A stretch of 64,000 nucleotides of DNA from Mesostigma viride (taxonomy: Eukaryota; Streptophyta; Mesostigmatophyceae; Mesostigmatales; Mesostigmataceae), in assembly GCA_009746045.1 (NCBI GenBank), contig RPFO01000076.1, positions 2,146,479-2,210,478 of the forward strand, in the 5' to 3' direction. Within the stretch, counting starts at the first letter, position 1. The number at the start of each line of letters is the position of its first letter. This document shows, one piece after another, positions 5,832 to 64,000 of the stretch. The notes beneath the pieces were generated by a model. It was not told the DNA's origin. It did not search any database and saw only the letters and a program-made list of their open reading frames with translations. Position numbers and translations under genes: made by a program.

Positions 5832-5876
5832 AGCTGTCGCAGCTGCTTCCAAGCATCGGTGGTAGCGTGCTCTTTC

Positions 5877-23508: not shown

Positions 23509-23513
23509 GGGCT

Positions 23514-23858
23514 AGTTAAAGCCCGACCGGCTCAGCTATGGCGGTCGGTCACGTTGAGCTTGGGATAAGGTGAACACAGAGAACTGCTGTCGGAGCTGGC
23601 CCACCACTGGTTTATGTCTTAGCCAGCAAACCCTATCCGGTTAGCCGTAACCGTGGGACAAGCTAGCTGTCCGTACCGACCCGGATAAGGCCCCGGACTG
23701 GGGCCTAGGTGGCGCCAGCCCTAGGCGCCGCCCTTAGACCGGTCGACCGCATCGGACCGCCGGATTATAGCCGGCGGCTTAGCGGACGCTAGCGGAAGGC
23801 GTGCGGACGGACATGGGGAACTTAGAGCCAGATCCTAGGGCTCTAGAGTTACTCAACT
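23514..23858 (-). repeat. Element A 3' LTR
   Basis: The coding strand begins AGTTGAGTAAC and ends GGGCTTTAACT, with AGTT...AACT termini. One A/G difference from the 5' LTR (in GGCGCC(A/G)GCCC). Confidence 0.95.
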
Positions 23859-27469: not shown

Positions 27470-27514
27470 CACTAACCGTTTTTCTCACCGGGGCGGCACG
27501 GTAACCGGGCCGGT
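27470..27514 (+). repeat. CACTA left terminal inverted repeat
   Basis: 45 bp starting CACTAACCG, identical to the complement of 50423-50467. After it the two ends diverge into related GC-rich subterminal repeats. Confidence 0.95.
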
Positions 27515-27601
27515 TCGCCAGTTAGCCGGGGCGGTAGCCGGTCCAGTTACCGTGCCGCCCCCGGCAACCGGCCCCGGCAACTGCCAGCTCATTCGCTGGC
27601 C

Positions 27602-28245
27602 CGGAAACCGGGGCGGCAGCCGGGGCAGCGCATGGCGGCGCATTCGCAGGGCCGGCAACCGGGGCCGGTAGCCAGGGCGGCGCATGGCGGCGCATTCGCA
27701 GGGCCGGCAACCGGGGCCGGTAGCCAGGGCTGCGCATGGCGGCGCATCGCACGGTCGGCAACCGGGGCTGGTAGGCAGGGCGGCGCATGGCGGCGCATTC
27801 GTACTGCAGGCAGCCGGGGCCGGTAGCCAGGGCTGCGCATGGCGGCGCATTCGCAGGGCCGGCGACCGGGGCCGGTAGCCAGGGCTGCGCATGGCGGCGC
27901 ATTCGCACTGCAGGCAGCCGGGGCCGGTAGCCGGGGCAGCGCATGGCAGCGCATTCGCAGGGCCGGCGACCGGGGCCGGTAGCCAGGGCGGCGCATGGCG
28001 GCGCATTCGCACTGCAGGCAACCGGGGCCGGTAGCCGGGGCTGCGCATGGCAGCGCATTCGCAGGGCCCGGCGACCGGGGCCGGTAGCCAGGGCGGCGCA
28101 TGGCGGCGCATTCGCACTGCAGGCAGCCGGGGCCGGTAGCCAGGGCTGCGCATGGCGGCGCATTCGCAGGGCCGGCAACCGGGGCCGGTAGCCAGGGCTG
28201 CGCATGGCGGCGCATTCGCAGGGCCGGCGACCGGGGCCGACAGTA
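27602..28245. repeat. 52-bp subterminal satellite, about 12 copies
   Basis: Tandem copies of a unit containing GCGCATGGCGGCGCATTCGC and CCGGGGCCGGTAGCCAGGG, with a period of about 52 bp and minor variants (one CGCACGGTC unit, several ACTGCAGG units). Each unit holds a CCGGGGCCGGT core like the terminus. Subterminal arrays of this kind bind transposase in CACTA elements. The Ala/Pro/Gly/Cys/His-rich frames through it are repeat products. Confidence 0.92.
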
Positions 28246-28360
28246 CTGAATTACTGCCCGCTGCGCATGCCGGCCATGGCCAATCTCCTTTATTATTTAA
28301 ATTATATGCAAAAATCCCCTTTCTCCTGTTGTGTACGCACAGGGATTAAAAGCACTTCGG
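28246..28360. other. Short AT-rich spacer inside the CACTA element
   Basis: No feature recognised. Confidence 0.4.
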
Positions 28361-28410
28361 TGCTCCGTGACTCCCCAACGGGAGCACGTGTTTAATTAAT
28401 TAATTAATTA

Positions 28411-29358
<948 letters not shown>

Positions 29359-29625
29359 AACAGGTGTTGAAGGTTCCTCTACTTTGTATTGGCACCCACA
29401 TATGACGCAGTCGTGAACGTGATCTAGTCAATTAATGAATTAATTTACACGTGAGAATGAATTAATTACAAAACAGACACGCGATAAATAATTTGATTAT
29501 TAATCAGTGAATCCCATTAATTGATCATTCGATTAATCCCATACTGTGAACTGATCGGGCAATTAATTAATTAATTAATTAATTAATTAATAAGACTCGT
29601 GCTCCCGTTTGGGAGTCACGGAGCA

Positions 29626-35797: not shown

Positions 35798-37375
35798 TCA
35801 ACTGACCGACGTGATACCTTGGCAGCATTTTGCAGTCGACCTGACCGTTGGTGCTTGACAGCAGTGTGGCTGACAGGTCGCTGTCCACGTCGTTGTCGGC
35901 TCGCTCGAGGCCTCGCGCCAGCACCGGACTTGGCAGTCCAGGACTTGGAAAAATTTGCAGCTTGGTCGATTTCGCCCTCGCGCACGAATTTGTTCCCCCT
36001 CAGTTAGGCTGGCAGCGTTCGAGCGCCGCGCCTTTGGTCTGGTCGCCGGACTTTGGTTACTAGCACCAGTATCACCTGGTATGCTGGCGGCGACAACGCG
36101 CTCCGCCTGCACTGGGCTGTTCTGGACCGCGGTTTCTGGAAGTACTTCAGCGTCTGACACGGACTTCTCCATTGCGCTGGAAACTTCTCGAATTGGCGTG
36201 AACTTCCACTGGGCCGGCGCAGAGTATATAAAGCCACGCAGTGTGCGAGTAATGCCCAGTAGGCCGCCCCCGATCCCGCATACACGGGCAAGCATGGCCA
36301 GTATGACCGTTAGGCCCACGGCCAGCCACTCCGCCGCGTGTCCCGAGGCACGTGAGATGCTGCGCTCGCTGCTCGCCATTTTCTGCCCTTGACAGGCAGC
36401 GTCGTTCTTGAAGCTCGTCGCCGACGATTTCAGCTCTGGGATGGCGTCCATCGCTGCGTCCGCACCGCGCGCGGGCAAAAAGTAGGTGTTGTTCCTCGTC
36501 CCGATGCTGCAGTGCCTGCTGTCCAGCACAGCAACCCGCTGGGCGAGGTCGACCTTGTGGCCATCCTTGACGAGCTGGCCGACTGATAGAAGTCGGGTGC
36601 TCAGCCTGGGAACGAGCAGCGCGTTTTGGAGGTGCACGTCCGCGTCCTGACCCGGCAGCTTCAGTTTGACAGTCCCGATGGCTGTCGCCTTCAGTTGGCC
36701 GCCTGAGCCGGCGATTTCCCTGTCATGAGGGTGCAGGCACACGAAGTCCGACGGGCATGGCGTCATGTGACAGCTCGCTGCGGAATCCAGCACCCAGCTG
36801 GTCGGTGCTTTCTTTTCATACTGCGTGAGTGCAGCAGCATCCGACGGCGATGGCGACTCGGCGATGGTGGCGAAGACGAAGCCGGACCGCTCCGCAGCCT
36901 CCTCGGTGATACGCGCCTCGCTGGCACCTGGTGAGTGCTCCTTTCTCGCTTGGTTCCGTCGCGTTGCCTTGTTCTTGCGTTCTTGCTTCAGCTCCGGATG
37001 CTTCTCCCAGCACTGGGTGTCCACGTGCCCGGCCTTCTTGCAGTAATTGCACCGCCTCTTTCCTCCACTTTTCTTCGTAGTAGTGTGGAAAACCTGGCCG
37101 TTAGGGGAGCCCTCCTTCTTTGCTTGAGCAGAACGCCTTCCGTGCAGTAGCTCCTCCGCCTCCAGCAGCGCAGTCTTGACCTCCTTTAGCGAATCCTCCT
37201 CTCCAGTTAGGACCTTGACCAGGTCACAATAGGCCGATGCTAAGGCCTTCAACACAGCCTTGATTTCTTCCCATTTCCTCAGAGACCGCCCATCAAACGT
37301 TGTGATGGACTTGCTTGTTGCCCGGAATTGCTTGTAGCACGCTTCCTTGGTAGCCATGGTGTCTTCAGTCGCCAA
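35798..37375 (-). CDS. Element D gag-protease with an added C-terminal region
   Basis: 525 residues. The N-terminal part is helical gag, then a CCHC knuckle CNYCKKAGHVDTQC (about 110-123). The protease starts WVLDSAASCHMT (about 196-207) and continues to STRLLSVGQLVKDG, the layout of Ty1/copia protease placed directly after gag. The active-site triad is D-S-A in place of D-S-G. Past residue about 300 the sequence leaves the copia pattern and includes a hydrophobic stretch (AEWLAVGLTVILAMLARVCG) that could span a membrane, followed by an Ala/Arg/Ser-rich tail. No integrase follows. The new tail may be read-through of deleted DNA or a recombined segment. Confidence 0.85.
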   Translation of the reverse strand: MATEDTMATKEACYKQFRATSKSITTFDGRSLRKWEEIKAVLKALASAYCDLVKVLTGEEDSLKEVKTALLEAEELLHGRRSAQAKKEGSPNGQVFHTTTKKSGGKRRCNYCKKAGHVDTQCWEKHPELKQERKNKATRRNQARKEHSPGASEARITEEAAERSGFVFATIAESPSPSDAAALTQYEKKAPTSWVLDSAASCHMTPCPSDFVCLHPHDREIAGSGGQLKATAIGTVKLKLPGQDADVHLQNALLVPRLSTRLLSVGQLVKDGHKVDLAQRVAVLDSRHCSIGTRNNTYFLPARGADAAMDAIPELKSSATSFKNDAACQGQKMASSERSISRASGHAAEWLAVGLTVILAMLARVCGIGGGLLGITRTLRGFIYSAPAQWKFTPIREVSSAMEKSVSDAEVLPETAVQNSPVQAERVVAASIPGDTGASNQSPATRPKARRSNAASLTEGEQIRARGRNRPSCKFFQVLDCQVRCWREASSEPTTTWTATCQPHCCQAPTVRSTAKCCQGITSVS

Positions 37376-37428
37376 TGGAACTGGATGTCTCTGGGTTCAC
37401 AGTGGTCTTCTTGTTCCTCAGTAACAAA

Positions 37429-40040: not shown

Positions 40041-41692
40041 AACAATAACAACAATCGTGGTAACCGACGGGACTCACTTGAAACGGTGCACCATCTCACT
40101 CCTCAAGGTAATCTTCGTACCTCACCTCCTTCTCCTGTTGCTGGTGGTCGCCGTCGTCCCTCACTTACCCCTCCTACCTATGAACAACGTATGCAAGTCA
40201 GATTTAGTGATGACCCTTCCCTTACCTTGAACCAGGCCCCTGCCCCTCCTGCAACCGTGGCTCAACCCCCTAGCAGGTCCTCACTAACTAACAATGTTCT
40301 AGGCCTCCTTCCCACCCTGTGCCTTCCATGCCTGTTTTAACACGGGTCGTGCCTCTGCCCCTGTCGGCCCTTCTGGGCGCCCTAGTGCAGTTCCCTTTTA
40401 CCCACCTGCTTCCTGGTCCTACCCTGAGACGGCCTATGAGGCAGCCCAGGTCCCTACCCGTGTGGCTGATTTAGAAGTTAACAGTGATTTCAGCACCATG
40501 CCCCTAGATGATAGAAATTATGATCATTTTGCCTACTCCTCTCTTCGTGAGCAATATACTGTCCCCTTTTCTTATGGGCACCAGCCTGAAACGGTGGCCC
40601 CTTCTAGACCCCTACCCAAGACTTTTCCTCTTCCTTCCTTCTATCCCGCTTATGTAGCAGTGGAAGATAGTGGCCCTATGGGAAAAACTGACTCTTCTAA
40701 TCCCCCTAAGCCTCCTGCTCTTCCCCTCTTTGCTAACCTTCCCAAGCTGGATGTCAAGTCTACCCCTCAACAGTTTTTCACCTTTATTATGTTGCTTACC
40801 CAGAACACAGAGTCGTGGCAGAATCATAATAGATGGCGTCTCTCTGATGCTGTGTTAGTTCCTCACTATCTTACAACCTGCATTACTCCTGAGCTTGCTA
40901 ACCTCATTCAGTGTGAGTCTTTGGCCTCTCATGCCTACCCTAACTCTGTAGCAGAATTGTTTAAGCGTTTAGAGAACCATTTAGTCCCTCCTGATTCAGA
41001 TTGGCAGGATAGATTAGCCTTTGGTACCTTGCAGCAGGGTACTAAATCATTTAAGGATATATGAAAGAGTTTGATGCTCAGATGGTACGAATTAGGGATT
41101 TGTCGGGTGCAGAAGTACGTGCTCGCTTCCTCCAAGGCCTCAGTAGACCCTTATTACGTGAAGTCAAGCGCCAGTTCTCTGCCTACCGTTTTACTGATCT
41201 GCCCCTCAAGCATGTGCGCCAGCATCTTTTACGAGTAGCAGATTTCTTCTCCACGCCTTCTCTTCCTACCCGTTCCCGTATTAATAATATTAGCCTTACC
41301 CCGAGGAGGAGAACTCCTATGTAGAAGAATTAGATATCTGTGTGACTGACCTTTCAGCTCTGGATGTCTCTCATATCACCTGCTATCATTGTAAGGAAGT
41401 AGGTCATCTTAAACGTGAGTGCCCCAAGTTCCTTTCGGGTGCTCCCCCTCATCCCGACGCTCGCCCTCCTCGTACCCCTCAGCGTGCTCCTATTCGTCCC
41501 ACTTCAGGACGCATTCCTTCAGCTACCCCTAGTAGGCTGAATGCTGTGCAGACAGGATCCCCAGGGTTCCCCTATGATAATCAGGCTCCCGCACCCTCTT
41601 CAATCCCTCGTGACCCTCCAGCAGTGGCTTTTCCGCCAGGGTCTTCTTCGGGGTTCGTTCCTATGGATTTGGGGGGGGAGGGGGAACAGTAG
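39966..41692 (+). pseudogene. Element E gag with zinc knuckle, frameshifted
   Basis: Starts MDPVGGDMSPIP followed by an Asn tract encoded by an AAT repeat (40007-40038). A Pro/Ser-rich region leads to a capsid-like part (40462-41064: LPKLDVKSTPQQFFTF, ESWQNHNRWRLSDA, GTLQQGTKSFKD), then 41061-41324 and a CCHC knuckle CYHCKEVGHLKREC at 41381-41422. Frames change near 40300, 41058 and 41300. At the last two, one additional base in a short run (T or C) would keep the protein open. Gag forms the particle and binds element RNA. Confidence 0.8.
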
Positions 41693-44600
41693 GCCTGTCA
41701 GCCGGGGGTAACCTGGACAGGTCCTTAGATAGTACCCCAGATAAAAATTTTTGCCTGCCTGTTTTTATAACCTCTGTAGGAGCTGAATCATCCCTACCAC
41801 TACGTGTGCGTCCTCTTATGTTCTTGAATGGTGGCTTAACCGTCCCTCATACTGTTGTAGATCCCTTCCTGCATGCTGATGAACTCTTGAATGTCTCTGT
41901 GTTAGTGGATAGCGGTGCGGCTAGCTCCTTTGTGAGCGAGGCCCTAGTTAGGCGTTTAGGACTAGTCCCTACCCCTCACACAAAAACTGTCACTGTCCAT
42001 TATGCTGACGGTCGCACCAGTCATTCCCCGGGTACGGTGTCCCTTCCCCTGGTCATACAAGGACGTACGGTCAACCTGACGGCCACTATAGGCCCTATCA
42101 CTACAGCTGATGTATTACTAGGATTAGATTGGCACCAGGATAATAAATTACTATTAATTATGATACTATGGTCATTTGGTTTCCAGATAGCTCTTACTGG
42201 GTACCAGAACGTCATTATAGATTAGAAAATTTATCCTTGGTAGATATTACTCCTCCTACACCTGTTGATCCTCCTGTGAGACCTATACCTGAAGTATTAA
42301 TGTCCAATGACGAATTGCGATCTGAACTAAAGGAATATGGATACCTATTATGTATGTTCCTTCAGTTAGAAGTACAGGAGATACCTATCACTAATAATAG
42401 TGTGGATATAGATGTAAATACAGTGGATACAATAGGAGTGGGATTTACTGAAAATGAAATAGTAAGATACATGGCTGTGATAGATTCCTCAAAAGTTTTT
42501 GAAGAAAAGACTCCTTCTTATCCTCCTCCTCGTTCTGTTTTACACCGTGTAGTTATCAAGGACGGTGCAGTTCCTACGCACTCTCCGATGTATAGAATGG
42601 GCCCTACCGAGTTAAAGGAACTAAAACAGATTTTAGTGTCATTATTAGAAGCAGGATTGATAGAGCCTAGTAACTCCCCTACTCAGCTGGTGTCCTGTTA
42701 GTTCCTAAGCCAAATGGCAAGTTTCGCCTAGTTACTGATTATAGGAAGTTGAATGATATTACTGTGAAGTCTAAATACCCTCTACCTCGTATTGATGATA
42801 TATTTAATAAGGTTAAAGGTTCCACTTGTTTCACAGTACTGGATTGTGCGGATGGTTTTTGGCAGTTGCGGATAGCTCCTGAGGATTGCCATAAAACCGC
42901 CTTTGCTACCCCTTTTGGTCATTACCAGTTTAGAGTAGCGGCTATGGGACTCTGTAACTCGCCTGCCTCTTTTCAAATGTTAATGAATGAAGTGCTTAGA
43001 CCTGTTATGGGAAATTCTCACCTTCCTCAGGTGTCCTCTGATTAAAGGATCCTTCCTTCTCCTCTGTTTCTTTATCTGAGCATGACCGTTCTTGTGCTCA
43101 AGCTTACTTAGATGATATTCTTATTTACTCTCCTGATTTTGAAACGCACCTACGTGATTTAAAGAAAGTATTAGAAATAATGGCTGAAAATTCTTTGTGG
43201 GCGCGCCGTGCTAAAGTTCGTTCGGGTAGGAGTGTCCCATTTTTAGGGCACGTTCTGTCAGATGCCGGGGTCGCTACCGACCCGGATAAAACTAAGTCAA
43301 TTCAGGAATGGCCTACCCCTACCGACGTTAAAGGTGTACGTAGTTTTCTAGGAATTGCTTCTTACTATAGGCGTTTTATCCCGCGTTTCGCAACTATAGC
43401 AGCCCCTATTAATCATTTATTAAAGAAGGATATCCCCTTTGTTTGGAGTAGTGAATGTCAGTCGGCTTTTCAGTGCCTAAAATCCCTACTCCTTTCCCCT
43501 CCTGTACTCATCCTACCGGATACTACTAAACCCTTTGTTGTGGCTACAGATGCTAGTAAGGTAGCTATAGGTGGCGTCCTTCTCCAGGATCAGGGTCAGG
43601 GCTTACAGCCAATTGAGTATATCTCTAGGACAATGCTCCCTGCGGAGCGTAACTATCCCGTACACCAGCAGGAACTCTTAGCTGTGGTGTATTGTTGCCA
43701 CGCGTGGCAGCACTTTCTTAAAGGTGCTCAATTTGATGTCTGCTGAATGAACCCTGTGAGCTAGATCCTTATAGATTAGTTATCCAAACGGATCACCGTC
43801 CCCTTACCCATCTTCTCTCCCAACCCAACCTTACCCCTCGGCAAGCGCGCTGGATGGAATTTTTAGCACAGTTTTCCCCTTTTAAACTTCAGTATGTCAA
43901 GGGTGTAGATAACATAGTACCAGATGCACTCTCTCGTCGTGCAGACTACTCCTTTTTCGAGGACCTTGATGTTCTCAATACTACTCTAGTTCCTACTACT
44001 ATGGGTGTAACCCCTTATGGTGAACTACCTGATGATGAATCCTATGCCTACCTCTTTCATACAGCTGTTCGCATGCCTGATCTCCTTTCTCACGTAGGAC
44101 TCTCTCTCCCGTGTGAGGCCCTTCCCGTGGCCTCGGTGGGGGGGAGGGGAAAAATAAAATTTCTATACCGCTTAGCCATATAGCGACTAGGTCAGGAAAG
44201 TCTTATGAAAACGTAGTCCCTCTAGGACCTCCCCTTCTCTTTGGCAAGGCGGTAGGAGATCTCTTTAAACCTGTTCTGGATACCTCTGTAGCGATGCCTA
44301 CCTCTGATCTTGAACGCCTTATTAGTAGATTTACGGCCACTGAGCCGGAAGCATTAGCTGCCATTGCTGCACATCCCCAACAATTAGGCAAGCACCCTTG
44401 TAAATTTGTAGGTGGGTTTTTATATGTGCAGATAGCAGATTCTCCCCTCAATGGCGCCTGTATGTCCCTCCTATCTGTCGCTCCTCCTTGCTCTTTGAGT
44501 TGCATGACTTAGCTGCTCATCAGGGTGGTAAACGGGTACGGGACTTAGTAGCCCGCTCTTATTACTGGCCTTCCCTTTATAAGGATGTAGATGAGTATGT

Positions 44601-44848
44601 TAGAACTTGTCAATCTTGCCAGGAGATGAAACCCAATAACGTAGGACAGATAGCAGAACCTAGGACCTTGCCTGACCCCATCATGCCGTGGGATTCTATC
44701 ATGATGGATTTTGTAGGACCTTTTAGAAAGAATGATAGAGGCAATGCCCAAATCCTTGTGTTCATAGATCGTTTTACGCGTATGTGCCATCTTGTGCCGT
44801 GTCCTTTAGAACTCACAGCACGTGATTGCGCACGCCTATACCTCAATA

Positions 44849-47182
44849 ATTTTCTGAGCTATCTGCTCATTTTATAGTTATGTTGCGGCGGGCTCAAAGG
44901 GGGCCGATCTGCCGCCTGTAGCGTAGCTCTACCGTACGTCACCTACACCATGTTAGGTGCTTGTTGTTACTTAGGACTAGAGAGAGAAAGGGACCGGCGG
45001 TGCGCCGGTACTAGTGCCTACTGGCAACCGTGCCCGCCCTTGATTGAGGGGGGCGCGGCGCCTTGAGACATGTGCTTTGTTTTCCATTTTCACACCGTAC
45101 TTAGAGTGGTGTGGTGAACGTAGGGAGGCCTTTTTGCAGCTTCGCAACTTGATCCCAGCATTTGCTGGCAAGGTCGGCTGGCCGCTATGGCGGCTGCGCT
45201 GAATGTAAGACGATGCTATCGGCCTCTCCGGGCGTGGAGAGGCCTGGAATAAAAGTCTTTATGATCGCCACCTACCGTTACAGGCCACGGTAATGGTTGT
45301 TGGGTGGGGGGCTCTACGATTTGAGTAAAAGGGTGTGATTTCCGGCGCTGGGCCCACTGACGATTCCCCTCTACCCCTGGGTGCGGCAAGCAGCTTCCTG
45401 ACACTGGGGAAGCTGCGTTTTTTAGTCGGACAACGTCAGGGAAGGAGCCATACAGGCCAGGGCCAGCGGCTACGGTGGAAAGAATCACAGGTGGAGGCGA
45501 ATCTGCCTTAAACGTGGAAATGGCTAGCGCGGGGTGCCAGGGTAGCCCATAACTACCAGGAGCCTGACAGCGGACCCGATCTTTCGGCCTGTGGCCAGAC
45601 GGGAGTTTCGGGGAGGATGCGGGGCTGGAGCGAATCTTGGTGGGAGGAGCGCGCTCTTCATAATTGCCCAGTTTTTCAGCAAAGGCAGCGGCTGCCGTGG
45701 GTCGGGGGGGGGTCCTGTCGGCATGGGGAGGTCGGCAGGCACTCTGTACCCTCTCGGCGCTCCGGCGAGCAGGCCCCTTCTGCCCTTGGCGATAAGGGAG
45801 AGGTGGGAAGCTGCGGAAAACCGTGGGTATTCATGCGCACTTACAAAAAATCTGGTTAAGAAACTCTACAGCGCTTGGCAAGCCTGGAAAAAAATTTTCC
45901 CCTCGCGGGGGGCGCGTGAAAACGCGGGGGGCTCCGCTACGCCCGCCCAAAGGCGGCGGGCTCCGCTTTGCCTTTGCCGTTTTCACGCGCCTCCCACGAG
46001 GGGGGGGGGTGCGTGTGGAACCCGGCAGTGCGGTCCGGCTTTGTTTTAAGAAAATGCATTATATACCATAATAAAGCTCCACTCGGCTGCGGCTGCGCCA
46101 AGGCTCGTGACACCATGGCGATGGTGAGCCTTGGCGCTAGGAGGTCCGCAGCCATCATTATCACCACGATGGGGGGTTATGGAGCCAGTGGCAGTGGCTC
46201 TACCCTCGGGAAATCCCAGCGGCTTTGCCGGTGGGCTGGTGATGGTGGTTGGGTGAGCTGGAGACGTTCCCAGGTGGCATAAGTCCTAAAGCGGCAGCAC
46301 TGGGATGCGCCCCTCTAAGAAGGGGAACGCATGTGGCTCCGCCCTGCGTCCGCCGGGAGACCGTAGCGGCCACACGGGGGCGGGAAGGGGGGCATCATCA
46401 TGCCAACAAGAGCCCAGCATTCCAAGTGGTTGCGTTCCTACCACCAGGGCTGGAAACGGCCTGGGTGGCCAGAGATGGTGATGTGGGACAAGATTGGACC
46501 AAGGGGGCATGTGCTGGGCCCCAGCATGGTGAACTGGCCTAACTTGACAATGACTTGTACAATGATTTTGAGGGTGTGGCTAGGCTCAACTGTTAAAGCC
46601 TGCACACACTTATTGTAATAAACTTGTTTCTCTGGTAGGAAGGCACTCCAATGGACCTTAGCTTCAGCACCTATTTTCTGAGCTATCTGCTCATTTTATA
46701 GTTATGTTGCGGCGGGCTCAAAGGGGGCCGATCTGCCGCCTGTAGCGTAGCTCTACCGTACGTCACCTACACCATGTTAGGTGCTTGTTGTTACTTAGGA
46801 CTAGAGAGAGAAAGGGACCGGCGGTGCGCCGGTACTAGTGCCTACTGGCAACCGTGCCCGCCCTTGATTGAGGGGGGCGCGGCGCCTTGAGACATGTGCT
46901 TTGTTTTCCATTTTCACACCGTACTTAGAGTGGTGTGGTGAACGTAGGGAGGCCTTTTTGCAGCTCCCACCCACCCACCCTCGCTGCTGTTGGGGACAAG
47001 ATTGGACCAAGGGGGCATGTGCTGGGCCCCAGCATGGTGAACTGGCCTAACTTGACAATGACTTGTACAATGATTTTGAGGGTGTGGCTAGGCTCAACTG
47101 TTAAAGCCTGCACACACTTATTGTAATAAACTTGTTTCTCTGGTAGGAAGGCACTCCAATGGACCTTAGCTTCAGCACCTAT
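44849..47182 (+). mobile_element. Tandem-dimer element with AT target duplication (in element E integrase)
   Basis: Two head-to-tail units, 44851-46672 and 46675-47180, each start TTTCTGAGCTATC and end CTTCAGCACCT. AT stands before, between and after them (44849-44850, 46673-46674, 47181-47182). The units share their first ~290 bp and last ~185 bp; unit 1 has about 1.35 kb extra in the middle (about 45140-46487) where unit 2 has only about 25 bp, CCCACCCACCCTCGCTGCTG plus a few bases. AATAAAC lies near each right end. Excising everything between the outer AT copies restores the integrase frame. No transposase-like ORF was recognised. Confidence 0.8.
45901..46002. repeat. Large hairpin inside the dimer element
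   Basis: GGCGCGTGAAAACG (45911-45924) pairs perfectly with CGTTTTCACGCGCC; flanking CCTCGNGGG/CCCNCGAGG extends the stem to about 24 bp with two mismatches. The loop is GC-rich. A second 9-bp hairpin (GGCCTCTCC/GGAGAGGCC) is at 45221-45244. Confidence 0.8.
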
Positions 47183-48227
47183 GTATACAGATATCATGGT
47201 TTGAGTAGGCAGTTTATTAGTGATAAGGATAAGTTATTTACCTCAGATTTTTGGCAGCAGTTTTTCGCTGCCATCGGTACCAAGGTTACCTACGGTACTG
47301 CCTATCACTCCTCCTCCTCTCATTTAGTGGAGCGTCTTAATAGGGTAGTAGAAGAAGCGCTTAGACACTATGTTAATGGCTCGGGTAGTGATTGGGAGGA
47401 TTATTTATGTTTGGTAGAGTTCTCCCTCAACAATTGTCCCCAAGCTGCGCATGGATATACGCCCTTCTTCTTAGATACTGGTAGACAGCCTCTTACTCCT
47501 ACCTCTCTCTTAGCTAGTCCTCTACGGGACAAGGATGATGTGTCCCGAGATACGGTAGAAGGTGTACAGTCCTTACTAGATAGAATGAAAACTGCTCATG
47601 ACCACGCGATCGCAGGGTACCAAAAAGCTCAGTCTAAGTACCTTGCTAGGTTGCGTGCCTCCTTAGATAGAAGAGCACCTGAGATAGAAATAGGAGATCT
47701 AGTATTAGTAGAAGGCCCCCGTGTTGGCCGTTTTGCTCATAAGTTTGAAGCAGAACTTAAGGTCAAACTTAGGCCCGCCTTCTTAGGACCCTTCCGTGTT
47801 TTGTCTAGAGTAGGAAATTTCCTATATAAAGTCGATATCCCTACCTCTTGGCAGACACATTCAAACACCTTCCATAGGAGCCAGCTAAAACTGTACCACC
47901 CTAGTACGTTCGCTGGTAGAGAGCTAGCGCCTGCCCCTTTAGAGCATAACCCTGACACTGGGGAAGTAGAAGACGAAGTAGAAAGCATCGTGGCCCATAG
48001 AGATGTCAAAAAGGGCCGCGGTACCCAGCGTCAGTACAAAGTGAAGTGGATGTATGCTCGCAGTGAAGTAGATAAGGTCTGGTATACGGAAAGCGAGCTA
48101 GATGGGTGTAGTCGCTTGCTGCAGGAATATAAAACCCTGCACAAGCTTTAGCAGTAGACCTTCTCCTCTCTTATATTATGCCTGCTGTCGACGGGTGGTT
48201 GGTTGTCCCCCCCCCTCCGCAGCCGTC

Positions 48228-50030: not shown

Positions 50031-50422
50031 GCGTGTCGCGGACTCTGCAGAAATGCACAGATATGCCAGACATGTGAACATTAGCCTGGTCGCTACCGCC
50101 CACCATTGCCGCCCCGGTTGCCGCCAGCGACAGCCGTTGCATGCCGCCCCTGTTACCGCCCTGGTTACCGCCCCAGTTACTGTCCACGGTAGCCACCATG
50201 GTTGCCGCCCTGGTAGCTGCCCGCGGTTGCCGCCCCGGTTGCCGCCCCGGTTGCCGCCCCTGCCCCTGCCCCCGGCAACCGCCCCGCCGCCGGCCCCGCC
50301 GCCGCCCCGGCAGCTGACCCACGGCAGCCGCCCCCCTGCCGCCCCGGCGACCGGCCGGTTACCGGGGCGAGCCGGGGTCCCCGGTTCGCCCCGGCGAGGT
50401 CCGGTTAACCGCCCCCCCCGTT
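50031..50422. repeat. CACTA right subterminal region
   Basis: GC-rich variants of CCGCCCCGGTTGCCGCC and GTTACCGCC, richest in 50095-50420, similar in character to the left subterminal satellite but without a regular period. Confidence 0.75.
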
Positions 50423-50467
50423 ACCGGCCCGGTTACCGTGCCGCCCCGGTGAGAAAAACGGTTAGTG
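50423..50467 (-). repeat. CACTA right terminal inverted repeat
   Basis: Exact complement of 27470-27514; ends GGTTAGTG at 50467. Confidence 0.95.
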
Positions 50468-52305
50468 CTACGCGACTTCGTCCTGATCTTGATGCAGGCA
50501 GGACACTGAGCACGCACATTCTTCAGCTCGTTGTATAAAGGTGCCCCTAACATGTGTGCCCCCTCTACCTCGGCTTGGGCCTCATGCCCGTATGCACGGT
50601 GCATCTGGTATGCTAACAGTTTCAGGGTGACAGCCTGAGGTGCAGTGGCATTGTCAGGATTCTCAACAGGTGGGGTGACTACTGGGGTAGTGACATTGGC
50701 TAACTGGGCAGCTTCAGAGGCTGCGCGAAAGGCCGCCCGTGTGAGCACCTTGCCAATGTGAAGATCCACACTAGGGTGGTGTGTACCGAGAACATCTGCC
50801 CGCCCAGCATTCTCTTGCACTGTCACAACATTCCTCATAGGCCCAACCGCCCCAGTATCTAGCTGGGGTGCTGCAGTAGTGCTTGGTCGCTCGGCGTTGT
50901 ACACACCCGACCTAGAAGACACCACATTGCTTAGGTCACGCATTGTAGACCCGTGCTCAGGAAGCACGTGATCCTGGCGCGACAGAGCCAGCGCAGCATC
51001 AACGGATTGCGTGAGCACATCACGGAATGAGACAGAGGATGCAGTCACGTTGCTTTTAGGAACGACGTCAGGCTCTACGACGGCCCGGTTCAGCGTGACG
51101 CATTGAGCAAAAGAAGGGGTATCGAGCGTGCTCTCACCTGACTTTCGTGCTGCCCGTCGCTCTGCCCACTCCTCGCGTGTGCCGTGGACGACGATGCGCT
51201 TGGCCTTGCACGCCTCCACGCTGTGACCACGCAGAACGTCGTGGCACTTGCGGCAAAGGTTGTCCTCGAGCTCCAGGTCCGGGCGAACTCGGCAGTCATC
51301 CCGGACATGGCGACGTCCGAAGCAGCGCTCACAGCGTTGCTTGCGGTCAGTAGACGCCCCCTGCTGCCGCTTGGCCGGGGGATGATCACCCTGCTTGGCG
51401 TCGCCACCATGCCCGCGCTTGCGCCCTCGCTGGCCCCCATTGTTGCCGTGGCCGACGACCTTTTTCAGGATGGCCGTAAGCTCCGACCGCGTAATTGGAG
51501 CCTCTGCGCCTGAAGAAGAAGACGCGCCGGCATCCACCTTGCGCAGGGATGGCAGAGCAGCCGAGGCAGCCGGCTTGGACTGCGCACTCTTGAAGCATGA
51601 GATTAAATACAGCATGCCCTCGTCGAAACTGACAGCACTCTTCTTTTTGAGTTCCGTCGCTATGGTCAGATGCACATCCGACGACAGGTCGCATTTCTTG
51701 AGAAATCGATTGCACAGGAAAATGGGCTTGAGAGTATCTAGCAGCTTGTGCTTGTGCACGAAGACCTGGAAATCATGTGCAGCCCCGGGCAAATTTGCCT
51801 TATTAACTGCATAGCCCTCGAAGTCATTGAAGGCTTGCTCGTTGGCCTCTTCCTTAGACCGCGACAAGTGGGCATCTAGACCGTTGTAAAAAACTTCCCA
51901 GGTTTGTTTGTTGTCGTCCGCAATGCGAACTAGATTGGCAATGTTTGGGTGCTTTGTTGTACTGCAGAATACTGCACGGAACTTGCCAATCAGCTCCGAA
52001 TCTTTGTCTGCGCGTCCATCGCGCAGACGCTTGAGAGCAGCTAGAAAATCTGCTGCGTCGTCCGCCGTATAGTCGGCAGGTAGATCCGCGGGCACCTCCG
52101 TTTGCTTGAGAGGGCCGCGATTCAGTACATCGTCAGCAGCAAGCATCAGATGCTTGAACTGCTTGGCCAGTTCAGGTTGCGCCACGAGGGTTTGCATCAA
52201 CCTCGTGGCCTCGTCCGCACTAAAGCGTGGCAGGACGGTCCCTGCGGCCTCGCCACTTGGCGTATCTGTGTGTTCGCCCGTGCGGCTCCGTGTACCGGAA
52301 GCCAT
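50468..52305 (-). CDS. Element A gag plus integrase zinc finger
   Basis: About 612 codons up to the CACTA boundary; the apparent extension to 50359 reads into the transposon end. The first ATG (MASGTRSRTGEH) is 20 bp inside the LTR. The N-terminal 300 residues are helical gag. Two zinc knuckles follow, CERCFGRRHVRDDC and CRKCHDVLRGHSVEAC. After a variable Ser/Thr/Val linker comes the integrase HHCC finger, HRAYGHE...CPACIK, cut off two codons later. No stop or protease lies between gag and integrase, so the two are one polyprotein. Confidence 0.85.
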
Positions 52306-52324
52306 CGGGATTTTTATGAATACA
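52306..52324 (-). other. Element A 19-nt leader, no TGG primer site
   Basis: The minus strand reads TGTATTCATAAAAATCCCG between the 5' LTR and the gag ATG. It does not begin TGG. The corresponding positions in elements B and C start CGTATTACTC and CGTACTCAAA, so a shared YGTAYTM-like start may be this lineage's primer site. Confidence 0.5.
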
Positions 52325-52669
52325 AGTTAAAGCCCGACCGGCTCAGCTATGGCGGTCGGTCACGTTGAGCTTGGGATAAGGTGAACACAGAGAACTGCTG
52401 TCGGAGCTGGCCCACCACTGGTTTATGTCTTAGCCAGCAAACCCTATCCGGTTAGCCGTAACCGTGGGACAAGCTAGCTGTCCGTACCGACCCGGATAAG
52501 GCCCCGGACTGGGGCCTAGGTGGCGCCGGCCCTAGGCGCCGCCCTTAGACCGGTCGACCGCATCGGACCGCCGGATTATAGCCGGCGGCTTAGCGGACGC
52601 TAGCGGAAGGCGTGCGGACGGACATGGGGAACTTAGAGCCAGATCCTAGGGCTCTAGAGTTACTCAACT
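52325..52669 (-). repeat. Element A 5' LTR
   Basis: 345 bp; differs from 23514-23858 at one base. The 5-bp repeat GGGCT follows at 52670-52674. Confidence 0.95.
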
Positions 52670-52674
52670 GGGCT

Positions 52675-54108
52675 GACAGATTCCCCTGCAACAGATGTGG
52701 TCGTTGCGTCAGTGATGTCACTTGGGACCTGAAAATCCTGCAGATCCTGTGAGCCTTGTGCCTGACTGCCCTCATTCATCAGGTAAGGCTTGACATATGA
52801 CCAACTCAGCCGGTGTACATGCTTTGGTTCGTCCTCCATGCTGACCAAGCATGCGTGGCTAGCTTCATCAACCTGGGTAACCACCCCAGGACTCCAGCTA
52901 CCACGTTTGCCATACAGGCTCGGTTCCTTCCAAGCTAATACCCTCTGACCCACTGTTGGCTCCAGCATCTTCCAACCCCGGTCCTTCTCCCTCAGCTTGG
53001 CAAAGGTGACATGTGCAGCATGTTTCCAGCCCTCCAGCACATGTGGTGGGCACAGGCCATGATATAGACCCATTGGGCTGACAGCAACTCCATCATAGTA
53101 GAAATTGACCCTGCTGTTCAGCTGCTGCTCCACGTTCCTCAACCATGCACTCCTGACAAGTGCAGGTGCAGACAAGGGTACCCAGTCTTCAGAGATGATC
53201 AATTTCTTGACCTCCTGGATTGCCCTCTCGATAGCACCCTGCTGCCCATGAGCCTCCCTAGGTGTAACCAGCAACTCAGGAAGGGTGGGGTCACCCTTGA
53301 GATGCTGAAACTGCATGTCCACCTGGATCCTTGTGGTAGAAAACTTGGCTCTTACATTCTGCAGGGCAGCCAGCAAGTACCTGTTCTTCATAGAAGGTAA
53401 ATGCTCTAGCACCTTGTACTTTGTGTACCTGTCCACGCACACCAACAGTTGCATGCCCCTGATGTGTTGGATATCACATTGCAGATCACCAATGCCCTGA
53501 GGTAGAGCTTTGGCATGTGATTTCCTGGGCTTGTTGGAGGACAACTGGCACTTACACCGTGAGGCAGCTTGCTGGCACGCCTTGAGAAGGGGTGCCCTGC
53601 CCATACGGAAGGCAAAGTTGTTTGACAGAGAAGTGGCATGCCCAAACATGTTGTGGATTCGGACATCCAACTCCTGGTACACGGAGGAAGCAGTCCCTGG
53701 CACAGTCAGGACTGTGCTGTCAGGTTGTCCAGCATCACCATGCTGACTTCCATCCTGTTCTGACTCAGAGCCTGAGTCACCCTGCTCATGCCCAACACCT
53801 GGACCGCCAGCAGGGACCACATGCATACCACCAGAGGCCTTCACACCCCTCTGTGGTTGTGCATTGGTTTCTCTCAAAATGAGAGGTCCACCCTCGTGCC
53901 CAGCACGAGGATGCGGCATGGGGTCAGACATTCTTACAGCTGCACCAGCTGTCAAGGACGTCTTCATAGGAACCTGTACCTCTCCAGGTGACCTGGGGCC
54001 ACCCTGAACCTGGAGATCACCCTCTTGTTGCCCAGATATAAAATCTGCATTGGAGCACCTGGCCTCCCCTTTGGGTGAATTAAGGTGTGTAGGGGTTGCC
54101 TCAGACAG
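52675..54108 (-). CDS. Element B integrase
   Basis: The frame opens immediately after the gag TGA and runs to the element A insertion. The first ATG is at 53967, but about 47 in-frame codons precede it. After a Gly/Pro/Gln-rich linker comes an HHCC finger (IHNMFGHATS...CKCQLSS). The catalytic core has LQCDIQHIRG (first Asp), VDRYTKYKVLEHL, RIQVDMQFQHL (second Asp), and HGQQGAIERAIQEVK with the catalytic Glu. The C-terminal domain has VGQRVLAWKEPS and KRGSWSPGVVTQVD. It joins processed cDNA ends to target DNA. The frame ends at the element A LTR (GESVSP); removing A continues it straight into the protease. Confidence 0.88.
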
Positions 54109-55221
54109 TCACTGCTCCTTGTTGTCTTCTTGTTGACTGCCCTTTGAAGGCTGGCCTGCCTGGGACTTGTTCTTGTTGTTGTTTTTGTTGTTGTTGTTCT
54201 TGTTGCTGCCCTGGCCCTGGGTCTTCTTGAAGCTGGGACACTCCTTCTTGATGTGCCCCCACCCCTTGCACAGGTAGCACTGGATCTTTGACTTGCCCTG
54301 GCCACCTCCCCCGTTGTCAGACGCGTTACCCGGCTTGGGCTTGCCACCCACCCTCCTGAACACCGACTTGGCATGTGATTGCCCGTCAGGGTCGGGTGAA
54401 TGGTTGGCCTTCCGCTTGTTATGGTTGCCCCCACGCCCTCCTTGGCTTCTTTCAGCCTCAGACGCCCTGGAGCCCCCCTGGGCACGCCCACCTGCATGGG
54501 TAGCCTTCACAGCTGGCACTCCACCCTCAAAAAGCTCCTCTGCCTCGAGTGCCTGTTTGATGATGACCTTATAGGCCTTCAGGGTAGAGTGTGGGGCACA
54601 CATGACCTTTAAAGAGCCACGTGTTGCCTTGTCCAGCCCAGAAACCTTCAGCCAGTTAGTCAGGGCTATGTTGTCAGCTACATTAAAGCCATGAGCCCTG
54701 CCTTCCTCAACCATTTTACAATAGTTGAGAAAATTCTGGATGAGGTCTCCTTTAACCTCCCACCCTTGGTATTTATCCTGCCAATGGATCCCCACTTTCT
54801 TCCGTTGATCCTCTAGCAGCTCCCTCAGCTCTGCCACGTAGACTGCCCAGGCCTTGTTGGCCTTCTTGCACTCTCTAGTGAGGTCTTTAATCTGATCTGT
54901 GCACTTGCCAAAAGTCTGGCTGCCTATCCAGATCTGATAATAGTTTGTACCACCGTACAAACTTGGAAACCCCTCTAGTCCTTCCACAAACTCCTCTGCC
55001 TGCTTTGGCTTAGAGTCTGAAGTGACAGGTTGCAGCTGATTAACAATAAGGAGACCCTGTGTGGTGAGATCATATCCAGAGACAGCATGTGTATTATTAT
55101 TGATAGGTACATTGGTAATCTCGCCGGTAACCCCCACGTCATCTACGTGAGCGGTCCCACTACCTGCACCTCCATTATTACCACTGGCTGGGGCACCCTT
55201 GCTACGGCGCCCGTCCGCCAT
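54109..55221 (-). CDS. Element B gag
   Basis: 370 residues, MADGRRSKGAPASGNN start. A helical capsid-like region (about 75-235, with YYQIWIGSQTFGKC and NFLNYCKMVEEGRAHGFNVA) precedes a basic Gly-rich stretch, a CCHC knuckle CYLCKGWGHIKKEC (315-328) and an Asn/Lys/Gln-rich tail. It ends at a TGA that is in the same frame as the integrase ORF, leaving one stop codon between them. Confidence 0.88.
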   Translation of the reverse strand: MADGRRSKGAPASGNNGGAGSGTAHVDDVGVTGEITNVPINNNTHAVSGYDLTTQGLLIVNQLQPVTSDSKPKQAEEFVEGLEGFPSLYGGTNYYQIWIGSQTFGKCTDQIKDLTRECKKANKAWAVYVAELRELLEDQRKKVGIHWQDKYQGWEVKGDLIQNFLNYCKMVEEGRAHGFNVADNIALTNWLKVSGLDKATRGSLKVMCAPHSTLKAYKVIIKQALEAEELFEGGVPAVKATHAGGRAQGGSRASEAERSQGGRGGNHNKRKANHSPDPDGQSHAKSVFRRVGGKPKPGNASDNGGGGQGKSKIQCYLCKGWGHIKKECPSFKKTQGQGSNKNNNNKNNNKNKSQAGQPSKGSQQEDNKEQ

Positions 55222-55387
55222 GATGTACTACAAGCTGTCTTAGCAAACACCTGAGTAAAGCAGCAAAAGAAAGTATGTACAAAACTGTCGACTATTGCCG
55301 CCTGCACCGGTGTCGCCGCCGCCCCCGCGAAACGCCGTTGAAAAGTCGACTAAACGCCGACGAGCACTGGAAAAATGGCCGACGTTT

Positions 55388-56137: not shown

Positions 56138-56165
56138 GATCGTGAAAAGGCGATCGAGTAATACG

Positions 56166-56783
56166 AGTTGTGAGAGGGTTGCACAGAATTCCGCCATGGT
56201 TCTTGCAGGAATGTTGCCTTTATTATGAATAAGGAACACAGACGTAAGTCACGTCACTTCCAAGACTGCACGCAGCACAGGCGACAGGGTCGCAGTGCCA
56301 AGAGAACGTGCACGCAAGAACTAGCGTCCCGGTGCTACCAAGTCACACATATAGGTTGCTAGGGACGCGTCCAAGTATTCAGCTGCACTGTCACAGCTGA
56401 ACTGTCAATCAATTGATTACACAGACTCTGGCACGTCTTTGGCGCGCAGATCTATCAATTGTCCATACGGCTAGTCCTGTGGACCTATCCGTACGCTGCT
56501 CGATCAGCATCAATTGTCTCATAGGTCCTGGCGCGCTACAGCGCGCCTACCTATCAATTGACCATCAAGTCCTGTACAAGTCCTGTCAACGTCCTGCGGA
56601 CTATCAAAGTGACACTTGTACATCCTGTGTCCGTACGCGCCCACAGTGGCGCGCCGGGTACTGTCGGCACAGCCTAGGAAACGTCATAACTTTTACGTTC
56701 CTTAACCAAATGAGGCGTTCAAGGTGCCGTTGGAAAGAGCGTAACAATCTCTATCCATCTAACGTAAATCCTTTACGTTAACT
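56166..56783 (-). repeat. Element B 5' LTR
   Basis: 618 bp. On the minus strand a TATATG box lies near 56350 and AATAAA at 56224-56219, followed by the AACT end at 56166, consistent with U3-R-U5 order on that strand. Confidence 0.9.
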
Positions 56784-59605: not shown

Positions 59606-59882
59606 TCAATGCCGATGGCCCTGCCATCAGGGCCGTTTTTGGCGCCGGTGACGGGCGCCTGAAGTGTCCTCGCTGCCAGGGGACTGGTCACACCCGGGAG
59701 ACCTGCAAGGCCAACAAGGCTTTCCCGTTGGGGACGAACCTGTGTGGCAAGTGCCACAAGCCAGGGCACAAGGCCCGGTTTTGCAAGTCGCGGACTGCTG
59801 CCAACCAGGCGGACAATGTTGGCAAGGCTGGGCCTATTAGGCGCCAGCGGTTCACGTGGGTGCGCAATGCTCAGGAAAACTG

Positions 59883-60269
59883 AAGGCCCCAGGGCAGGAC
59901 AGCGCTATGGAGCATAGGAGGCTCCTGGCAGTAGACGATGTAGGCAGTTTTATGGCCGATGCTGCGGATGTTAAGGCAATATCAAACTTGATCAATACAG
60001 ATCCAATTTTCAAGTATGCCTGTGCGTCTCGGTTTCACATCTTCTTTGGCCATGGAACAAACGCTTACAAGTTTGCTAGGGCTTTTGGTGGGGCGCCAAT
60101 GCTGGAAGCATGTCGTGAGTGTTACGAAAATTGTCCACAACAATGTCAATCGTCGGGCCCCAAGCCTCCTCGCCACCATGCAAAGCATCCACCTGCGAGA
60201 AAGGGGGAAATCGTAGGTGATGTGCTGTTCTGGGCACACATGCCATACTTTATTGCAATAGATAGATAT
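59883..60269 (+). pseudogene. Element C integrase N-terminal part
   Basis: In the frame of 59856-60281. Carries the HHCC finger (FHIFFGHGTNAYKFARAFGG...CRECYENCPQQC), then RHHAKHPPARKGEIVGDVLF with the first catalytic Asp, and AIDRY at the insertion point. The finger and the HAK motif align with elements A and B. Confidence 0.8.
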
Positions 60270-62415
60270 TATGACACTTGAGCTCCCAAGAAAACCAGCA
60301 TTTGATTGAAAACAATGAGTAGAGCCCCTGCCAAAGGCAGGTTTAAGTAGTCATCTCGTCTCCCTCGCATGCAGGAGCAAGAGCCCCCCAAGGGTGGGAT
60401 GGGTGGGAAGAAACAATTACGGGTCACAACCCGCCGACCATGCTTATCAAGCCTACCGTCAAAATGGAAAACGGCAAAACCAGAAATATCCTAACGCTGA
60501 CAATTTAATAATTCAGCCAGCCAGCTCATCTGTCACACCTCTGAGCTGTCAGGCCATGTGTACTCTTCGAATGCAACCCTGAACACACTACCCAACCAAG
60601 CAGCACACCAATCAATTGGTGAGTGCTGGTTACATCAGATTTTATTACAGCTTTTTGACGCAACTTCCGTCAGCATTCCACACATGGCCGGCCGTTCAAA
60701 CAAACGGCGCCTGACTTACAAAAGGTAAAGCTAGTTGCCAGTAGGATTCCCCGGTAAACAACAAGCCGTCCCCATTCGTCTAACAAGCCTCTCTGCATGT
60801 ACAGCCACAAGGTTGTGGCGGCCCTTTCTTTCCCGCATTCTGTTTAATAAACTATTTTCAGAGAAATCCGATTATGACACTTGAGCTCCCAAGAAAACCA
60901 GCATTTGATTGAAAACAATGAGTAGAGCCCCTGCCAAAGGCAGGTTTAAGTAGTCATCTCGTCTCCCTCGCATGCAGGAGCAAGAGCCCCCCGATCCACC
61001 CCAGTCCCTGGCGCCATTGCCCTCCTCCCCCGCACTGTCGCCGTTCAGGAAACAAAACTTGATAGGATCACTGTTGCCCCAATATTAACAGTGAACAAAG
61101 AAAAGAAGAAGAATCCCCCCCCCTCTTCCAGGCAGCCTCGAGGGTAGCCGCTTCCATAAAAAGACCACAAAGTGGGGCGTGTCGCAACATCTCCTTCATG
61201 GCGACTCAGCCCGCACAAGGCTATATAATAACCCCCTAAGGGGCCCGACGATAAAAGGTTAGCGAATCCGCGGAGCCGCCTCAGCAAAATATTATTCCAG
61301 ATAAAAACCCAGAAAATTCGCATTCCGACGCCACCAGGGTTTGAACCGCTACCTGCCGGGTGCTGAGCAGGGAGAGACGACAAGGCCAGGCACTGCCACT
61401 GCCAGCCGAGACGCCTTTCCGATACTCGGTTCCTTTTGTGGGAATTTTGCAAATATATTTTCTTCCGGAACGCAAGAAATTAGCCGGCCGCGCGTCACCC
61501 TTATATCCCTCGCTGGCCCATAGCAAAAAAGGGCCGCGCACCAAGCCGAAGGCAGCGCCATGCAGCGCCCTAGGCTGTGGGCCGCTGACTGACTACCAGC
61601 GCAGTCTCATGGAATCCAAATTAATCTATTGACCTTCGCTCAGTTTCCACATTAGCTGCGGACTTCTTAGTCGACATGATTGGCTCCGCTGCTGGAATTA
61701 CCAGCAGCCGGGGCGGGGCGCCTAGCCTACTTTCTATGACCACCGAGACGCTGCCCAGCAAGGTGCCAACCAGAACCACTTGGCACATTGGTAACGCGAA
61801 ATTTCCGTTCCGTTCAAACCGCCCCTACCTGCCGTGAAGTCGCAAAGCCCGCGACTTCATAGCAGGCAAGGACGGGGTCTTTGCCTAATTTTCTTTAGCC
61901 CCGCCGCCATAGCAGCGAGGCCGCTCATACTGCTTCAGTGAGCACATTCAAAGAAACAATTACGGGTCACAACCCGCCGACCATGCTTATCAAGCCTACC
62001 GTCAAAATGGAAAACGGCAAAACCAGAAATATCCTAACGCTGACAATTTAATAATTCAGCCAGCCAGCTCATCTGTCACACCTCTGAGCTGTCAGGCCAT
62101 GTGTACTCTTCGAATGCAACCCTGAACACACTACCCAACCAAGCAGCACACCAATCAATTGGTGAGTGCTGGTTACATCAGATTTTATTACAGCTTTTTG
62201 ACGCAACTTCCGTCAGCATTCCACACATGGCCGGCCGTTCAAACAAACGGCGCCTGACTTACAAAAGGTAAAGCTAGTTGCCAGTAGGATTCCCCGGTAC
62301 ACAACAAGCCGTCCCCATTCGTCTAACAAGCCTCTCTGCATGTACAGCCACAAGGTTGTGGCGGCCCTTTCTTTCCCGCATTCTGTTTAATAAACTATTT
62401 TCAGAGAAATCCGAT
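60268..62415 (+). mobile_element. Tandem-dimer element with AT target duplication (in element C integrase)
   Basis: Two head-to-tail units, 60270-60870 and 60873-62413, each start TATGACACTTGAGCTCCC and end CAGAGAAATCCG. AT stands before, between and after them (60268-60269, 60871-60872, 62414-62415). The units share ~120 bp at the left and ~460 bp at the right; unit 2 has about 960 bp extra in the middle (60994-61950), replaced in unit 1 by about 20 bp of GGGTGGGATGGGTGGG type. TTTAATAAACTATTTTC lies near each right end. Excision between outer AT copies gives an integrase of the same spacing as element A. No transposase-like ORF is seen. Confidence 0.8.
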
Positions 62416-64000
62416 GCTCACAACGTAGCTGTAGTTCCTTTGCGTCATATGGAAGCCGCCGACCTGGCAGAAGCCATTGATGTCTCTTCGTCCTTTTTCT
62501 CACCACTCGAGTCAATATAGATGGACAGGCAGTTCGCGTGTCTAGAGGGCCAGCCTGGATTTGAATGCCTCAAGACAGTTGGGCGTGAGGACCACACTGG
62601 TCAGGGTATAGTGGAGCGTGCTGTGCAAGAATTCAAGCAAGCTGCACGGAGACAAGGTGATGCATCCCTTTCAGCATACCCAGCCCGCCTCATGTGGGCG
62701 TTGCGGATTTGTGCATGCCTTAATCGGCGTGTGTTGTTGTCCATTCCTTCTCGCAATGTGGTGATAACAGCTGAGGGATTGCAGCACGGCCACTACCCAC
62801 CAGAGATAGAAGAGGAGTGGGCACGCCATTTGCAGGGTAGATTTGCCAACCTGGTACGAAGGGATACACGTAGGCCGGTTACCGCCTATAGTGTAGGAGA
62901 CCTGGTTTGGGTGCATAAAGAGGGCCCCTTTGTAAAGAGGGGACAGTGGAATGGTCCAGCCACGGTAGTGTCCGTGGATGGGAGTGTGCGCAAGGCCGTT
63001 GTTTCCTTGCAGGACAAGCAACACCACATCCCGTGGAGCAAGCTCAAGCACTATCAACCGAACACAAGTGCGTGGGAGCGCCTTCTGCACTACTACGAGG
63101 ACGCGGACAACTTCTTGCGGCCTCCACCAGGTGACGTGATTGCCCCTCTTTTACCCATGCCTGCCTCTGACCCTATGCAAATGTCTGCCGAAGCTCGGGA
63201 GGTAGAGGACGATGAGCATGTTGAGGAGGACGGTGATCTGGTGGCACCTGCTGCAGATGTGCAGAGCTTAGCTCGCGAGCCCCCTGCTGACCTGCGCGAG
63301 GGTAGTAGGGAGGGCATTACCCCTGCCGTTAGCCAGGGTCCGGCTGCCGTTAGTCAGCCTCGCCGGGGTGGTGGGTTGCTCAGCAAGATTGTTCTAGGGC
63401 TGCGCCGGGACAATAACATGGGGTTAGGCTCCCTTCGCCGCCCACCACAGACTGCAGGCGTCCCCCCTCAGCTGGGCCCGAGCACTGCAGTCATCTCTTC
63501 CTCGTTAACCGCTAGGGCGCTGAATTGTGGGTTCCTCATTGATACCCAGGCCCAGGTCTCTATTATCAGGGCCAATTGTGTAGACTTTCCTTTGCTGCCC
63601 TCTCATTGGACTCAGGTCACTGATTTTGCTAGGTCAGGGTCCTACAAGGTCCTGGGGGAATTTCCCTTTACCATACTCGGCGCAGACACGCCCATGTGTG
63701 TGGTAGAGGGGTATGATGGGCCCGCCTTATTAGGGCAGCCGTTCTTGACGCTACCCGGGGTTACAGTGAGCAGCACACAGCTGTCCCGAGCGGGGTTTGG
63801 CTGCATGCGATTGAATAATTTTTCCCTCGATGTCGCTGCTCGGGGTCTCTCATTGCCTATGGTGGCTGCCATGAAAGGGGTAGAGTACAAGGATTCTGAA
63901 TTGCCTCCTGCACGCGATCTTCTCACCCCTAAAGCCCTCACCCCTGACAGTTTGGGGATTAGCTTCCACGATGTTGCCACTGAAAGCCCCATGTCCTTCC
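62414..64000 (+). CDS. Element C integrase core, protease and start of RT (runs past window end)
   Basis: After the dimer, integrase resumes with NVAVVPLRHMEAADL, meets a TAG at 62518-62520, then is open to the window end. MDRQFACLEG holds the second Asp; GREDHTGQGIVERAV holds the catalytic Glu. VGDLVWVHKEGPFVKRGQW is the C-terminal DNA-binding part. An acidic, Pro-rich linker follows, then the protease: FLIDTQAQVSIIRAN has its Asp codon at 63541, with Gln in place of Gly, and it ends GPALLGQPFL. RT begins near 63950 (LGISFHDVATESP), aligning with the RT start of A and B. One TAG and earlier gag stops make this copy defective. Confidence 0.85.

Follow-up and report, generated by a model that had tools for sequence, protein, structure and literature searches.

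LTR retrotransposons of Mesostigma viride with a retropepsin-like domain between integrase and reverse transcriptase

The order of the domains in pol is a pillar of the classification of long terminal repeat (LTR) elements. Ty1/copia elements are arranged as gag, protease (PR), integrase (IN), reverse transcriptase (RT), and RNase H (RH), and Ty3/gypsy elements carry the IN after RNase H. A comparison of 268 elements distinguished five positions of the IN, which may follow the PR, follow RNase H, be truncated and reversed, be lost, or stand upstream of gag (Llorens 2009, PMC2774666). A large plant survey classed 13,863 elements, 13,795 of them from 80 Viridiplantae species, into the two standard orders and discarded all elements of unexpected order as likely mispredictions (Neumann 2019, PMC6317226). 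Here, we analyzed a stretch of 64,000 nucleotides from Mesostigma viride (contig RPFO01000076.1, positions 2,146,479–2,210,478; hereafter, the window), in which three LTR retrotransposons, elements A, B, and C, share the order gag-IN-PR-RT-RH. This order appeared in neither publication, as far as the covered parts of the two extend, and most of the subscription literature lay outside that coverage. The statement in an earlier note on this DNA that no named group has this order is backed, but not proven, by these sources, and our view that the elements are a novel form of LTR retrotransposon related to copia is likewise supported without being proven.

In element C, an open frame of 493 codons (62521–64000, plus strand) ran uninterrupted up to the window edge and encoded, in this order, the second half of the IN, an acidic linker, a retropepsin-like domain (DTQAQVSII ... 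ALLGQPFL), and the start of the RT. The earlier note had described a single frame leading from the Glu motif and C-terminal domain of the IN to the RT start, and this was confirmed. The second catalytic Asp (MDRQF), the Glu (GIVERAV), and a C-terminal domain of the GKRG type lie at 62521–63090 (open reading frame [ORF] and alignment, with the fold modelled on genome copy L022), the retropepsin-like domain at 63484–63849 (alignment, with fold and profile on L022 and its relatives), and the copia-type RT start, cut by the window edge, at 63922–64000 (alignment; RVT_2 E-value of 7.6e-5 in L022, below the Pfam cut-off). The upstream part of this copy (59665–60269) was read by eye and contains two CCHC zinc knuckles at the end of gag (59665–59784), which also occur in the open gag frame of copy L036, followed by the HHCC finger and the region of the first catalytic Asp of the IN (59997–60269), which fall in conserved alignment columns. 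After this Asp, approximately 2.1 kb of other DNA (~60270 to 62415) splits the IN, and an in-frame stop stands directly before 62521; in copies elsewhere in the genome, this stop is absent and the frame continues to RNase H.

Elements A and B, both on the minus strand, have the same order as C, as the earlier note had proposed. Element A is bounded by its own LTRs and a 5-bp target duplication (AGCCC) and sits inside element B, in agreement with the coordinates given in the earlier note. Its 345-bp 5' LTR (52325–52669, AGTT...AACT, from LTR comparison) is followed by an ORF for gag with knuckles and the HHCC finger (50359–52326), an ORF for the IN core, with Asp as the third catalytic residue (MIDRT), and C-terminal domain (26522–27484, aligned as copy L012), and a PR-RT-RH ORF (24237–26630), in which the retropepsin-like domain (DTQASVSII ... 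ALLGEPF; 25941–26291, alignment and PR profile) precedes the RT and RNase H (24255–25871, alignment); the 3' LTR lies at 23514–23858. A GC-rich tandem array with a 52-bp period (27545–28291) adjoins the IN of element A, and by eye the sequence where the gag piece ends at 50359 resembles this array. Element B, with A nested within it, is bounded by LTRs at 56163–56783 (5', starting AGTT) and 17220–17844 (3'), which were delimited with BLAST and are 98.9% identical. Its gag ORF (54109–55227) has a CCHC knuckle (zf-CCHC, E-value of 0.0052, below the cut-off) and ends in TGA-C, and the next ORF (52660–54108), in the gag frame, holds an IN with HHCC, DDE, and C-terminal domain (52762–53691; alignment, and rve with an E-value of 0.014, below the cut-off). 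The retropepsin-like domain (DTNSQVSII ... ALLGQNF; 23019–23366, in ORF 23004–23531) was recognized from the alignment and the PR profile, with gag-asp_proteas at an E-value of 0.12, below the cut-off. The N-terminal part of the RT (19836–20408, in ORF 19833–20546) and the C-terminal part with RNase H (18819–19709, in ORF 18795–19754) had no Pfam match and were aligned with A, C, and D.

Searches of the 440-Mb Mesostigma viride assembly, in which the counts are lower bounds and include fragments, gave at least 95 matches for C and at least 57 for A, together with two families outside the window trio, D (at least 71) and E (at least 80), so that there are five families, A–E, in total. The order gag-IN-PR-RT-RH was found in A, C, D, and E and in the window copy of B; neither the Ty1/copia order nor an IN after RNase H was encountered, the IN preceding the PR in all five families, and because of this domain order the elements were not assigned to Ty1/copia. 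In the inspected copies of C, D, and E, IN-PR-RT-RH was uninterrupted in single frames, and the open frames listed were 1194 amino acids long in C (9 of 95 matches), 1249 in D (13 of 71), and 1320 in E (15 of 80). All 57 scored matches to element A, from 8350 candidates, were 100% identical over its frame of 797 amino acids. The pairwise identity of the PR domain across A–E was 40–54%, and the INs of A, B, and D were 32–33% identical to that of C. Because five families, the four searched ones with at least 57–95 matches each, have the IN-PR-RT order, it is not a local rearrangement, as the earlier note had argued, and the match counts show that it is not due to chance. All three window elements are either nested or interrupted, which could point to misassembly or to rearrangement within nested copies as the origin of the order; however, frames of equal length on many contigs speak against this, as do Mesostigma gene models from another source, and these counts refute such an origin, to which we assign a negligible probability.

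Database proteins matching element A were Mesostigma viride gene models (EukProt names). No relatives outside Mesostigma were found in the protein searches, which returned only Mesostigma gene models and are a weak test, each having scored about 8000 candidates that shared most words, and viral contigs searched with the IN gave no match. In one Mesostigma genome paper, LTR retroelements account for 27.9% (PMC6947507), and a word search of the main texts of this paper and PMC7027972 found no occurrence of copia or gypsy.

The LTRs and target duplications were examined in one copy each of B, C, D, and E and in two copies of A (the window copy and L021). The LTRs were 501 bp long and 100% identical in C (target duplication ACCAA), 431 bp and 98.8% identical in D (ACGCT), and approximately 601 bp and 99.5% identical in E (CCATT); in B, the LTR flanks agreed in three of five bases, and no matching duplication was seen in L021. 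LTR retroelements in general have LTRs that begin with TG and end with CA, and the target duplications of Ty1/copia are 4–6 bp long. The LTR ends were TGTT...AACA in E and AGTT...AACT in A–D, so that only E follows the general pattern, and one copy each of A, C, D, and E showed the short duplication, at 5 bp. Copies with near-identical LTRs in these families indicate recent mobility. We interpret the elements as LTR retrotransposons of Mesostigma viride that are autonomous, have moved recently, are related to copia by their RT, and have the pol order IN, retropepsin-like domain, RT, and RNase H, at a probability of roughly 0.86. The features behind this interpretation are present in the sequences: LTRs, 5-bp target duplications, a gag with knuckles, a three-domain IN, a predicted retropepsin-like fold between IN and RT, and an RT of the RVT_2 type.

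The PR-like domain was assigned from its modelled structure and from a profile. All 50 entries listed by each structure aligner for the predicted structure were retroviral proteases or DDI1. Against PDB, the top matches of the profile were HIV proteases; of the 17 sequences listed at E ≤10, two were below 0.001, DDI1 appeared at 0.34 and 0.71, and the unrelated RcsC was among them. With moderate confidence, the domain is thus predicted to have the retropepsin (clan AA) fold, with a flap and a hydrophobic-hydrophobic-Gly motif, and the possibility that the DTQ/DTN domain has another fold, which the earlier note had allowed for, was not borne out. The profile search covered stretches of at least 40 amino acids from families A–D and gave strong matches (159–201 bits) only between IN and RT (copies L021 of A, L036 and L037 of the C type, and L044 of D, and the window copies of A, B, and C), together with four weak matches (E-values of 0.0098–0.28) in other ORFs. 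It also matched, in register, a gypsy protease ORF of the window (41614–42222, E-value of 0.016), to which we give little weight because L037 contains a chance ORF with a higher score.

These results bear on whether the elements are ordinary Ty1/copia, in which a true protease was overlooked and the domain between IN and RT is an extension of the RT. No protease was recognized by Pfam when A, C, and D were scanned as single sequences; such scans were nearly blind, and nine pieces of A, B, and C gave no RT or protease family at E ≤1. From the last knuckle to the opening His of HHCC, there are 32 gag-frame and 65 pol-frame residues in C, 9 and 127 in D, and approximately 200 in A. The linker in A contains one LDTGAVG string, which could be taken as part of a protease; however, the rest of a retropepsin is missing at the proper distance, and no D[ST]G occurs between the knuckles and HHCC in C and D. 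A conventional protease between the gag knuckles and the IN, another possibility considered in the earlier note, was accordingly not found in A, C, and D by motif and PR profile, nor in E, whose ORFs were read by eye only. Since the domain between IN and RT, on the other hand, models as a retropepsin with HIV proteases as the best PDB matches of its profile, we consider an overlooked copia protease very improbable.

The active site of the domain is DT[Q/N/M/L], with N in family E; DTG occurred in none of the 46 motif matches, and the usual catalytic glycine of the retropepsin D-[ST]-G is thus missing. The Asp, the Thr, the flap region, and the hydrophobic-hydrophobic-Gly motif are conserved across families. 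On balance, we slightly favor a domain that works as a dimer with a DTx loop in place of DTG, cutting gag-pol and freeing the IN from the RT. Otherwise, it would be a retropepsin-derived pseudoprotease that keeps the fold and the Asp and serves as a non-catalytic spacer or dimeriser, with processing either dispensable or left to a host protease. This second possibility, which we rate somewhat below even odds, agrees with the substituted third residue, given that the glycine of the triplet must be a small residue (PMC6058741) and that the template used to align the families of clan AA is DTG/ILG (PMC2642776), in the covered parts of these sources. It is less easily reconciled with the retention of the active-site and flap features at a PR identity of only 40–54% and with the existence of recently mobile copies.

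The IN has the three domains of DDE integrases: an HHCC finger, an RNase H-like core, and an SH3-like C-terminal domain. Its catalytic triad is DDE in B, C, and E and DDD in A and D. In these two families (L012 and L040), Asp replaces Glu at the third position, yet near-identical copies are many. Sequence searches of PDB gave no match for the profiles of IN and RT or for element C by itself. RVT_2 matched the RT of E with 48 bits (cut-off 31.6) and that of C with 22.9 bits, below the cut-off, at the E-value given above; the RTs of A, B, and D had no RVT_2 match. The C-terminal end is ADALTK-like, which is a hallmark of copia.

The passage from gag to pol differs among the families, a feature that, like the missing glycine and the LTR ends, the earlier note had not mentioned. 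In one copy each of B, D, and E, gag ends in TGA-C and pol continues in the same frame; in C, the frames overlap by 40 nucleotides in the −1 frame, an arrangement retained in six of seven copies (L002–L008). In A, the frame that carries HHCC and IN stayed open as far as the edge of the locus in 7 of 12 copies (L009–L020), and in all 12 it overlapped PR-RT-RH by 106 nucleotides in the −1 frame. A CCCCCCT in A and, in C, a GGAAAAC ahead of TGA are no more than candidate frameshift sites. The knuckles lie in a different frame from the N-terminal part of gag in L051 (E, 333–1480) and L023 (C type, 5477–6600), which may be broken copies or carry a further frame change. The bases after the 5' LTR were TGTAT (A and D), CGTAC (C), CGTAT (B), and TGTAC (E) in the copies examined (L021, L036, L044, L051, and window element B), with YGTAY in common and no TGG. 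A primer RNA for this putative primer site was not found, and Tf1-like self-priming was rejected for A, C, and D, whose own LTRs hold no complement of at least seven bases to it. The elements would be transcribed from the LTR, with gag as the main product and pol made by UGA-C readthrough (B, D, and E) or −1 frameshifting (C); because the frame changes between IN and PR in A, its IN is expected at the level of gag. Reverse transcription would start at the primer site opening with YGTAY, and the IN would join AGTT/AACT ends, or TGTT/AACA in E.

The window also contains other repeats. In a conventional copia gag-protease fragment (35798–37396, minus strand), a knuckle recognized by eye precedes a Pfam Pol_BBD match that carries LDSAAS, which, in contrast to A–E, is the usual copia order; the LDSAAS active site also lacks the usual glycine. 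Pieces of a gypsy-type element (40303–48151, plus strand, by eye), with a VDSGAA protease, RT, and IN, are interrupted at approximately 45–47 kb. A frame of 686 amino acids with a QGDP...YLDD-like RT (10713–12773, minus strand) probably belongs to a non-LTR (LINE-like) element, and by eye the ORFs that flank copies L013 and L014 of family A resemble it. Long simple-repeat arrays at 28391–29400 and 15200–15740 leave several frames open (LLTY/LLAC and GGRE type).

The five families with their new common order and recent copies indicate that a protease can sit between IN and RT while the element still moves. With the catalytic glycine missing, it can be tested directly on them whether an LTR retrotransposon runs on an altered or dead protease, and in family A the usual ratio of gag to pol would be broken by an IN that lies before the frame change, on the side of gag. 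Loss or relocation of the copia-position protease probably took place in the ancestor, before the families diverged. A more far-reaching proposal, which we regard as less likely than not, is that of a deep, separately evolved LTR lineage, so far only in Mesostigma, marked by loss of the copia-position protease, a non-copia retropepsin with a working DTx between IN and RT, new LTR ends, a primer site other than TGG, and an IN made at the gag level in family A.

Judged from their sequences, the elements would work like a copia-related LTR retrotransposon. They resemble Ty1/copia in the RVT_2-type RT of C and E, the IN before the RT, the terminal RNase H, the ADALTK-like end, and the 5-bp target duplication, but differ in that the PR follows the IN and resembles retroviral and DDI1 retropepsins and in the AGTT/AACT LTR ends of A–D. 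With Ty3/gypsy they share an LLG-type retropepsin and a gag with knuckles, whereas their IN precedes the PR and RT instead of following RNase H, and the RT of C and E is of the RVT_2 type. Petunia vein clearing virus, a pararetrovirus rather than an LTR retrotransposon, likewise has its IN upstream of the PR. The viral IN, however, is upstream of gag (PMC2774666). The Gmr1-type gypsy elements named in the same paper are a precedent for a reordered pol with the IN before the RT, but their IN lies downstream of the PR, whereas in the Mesostigma elements it lies upstream.
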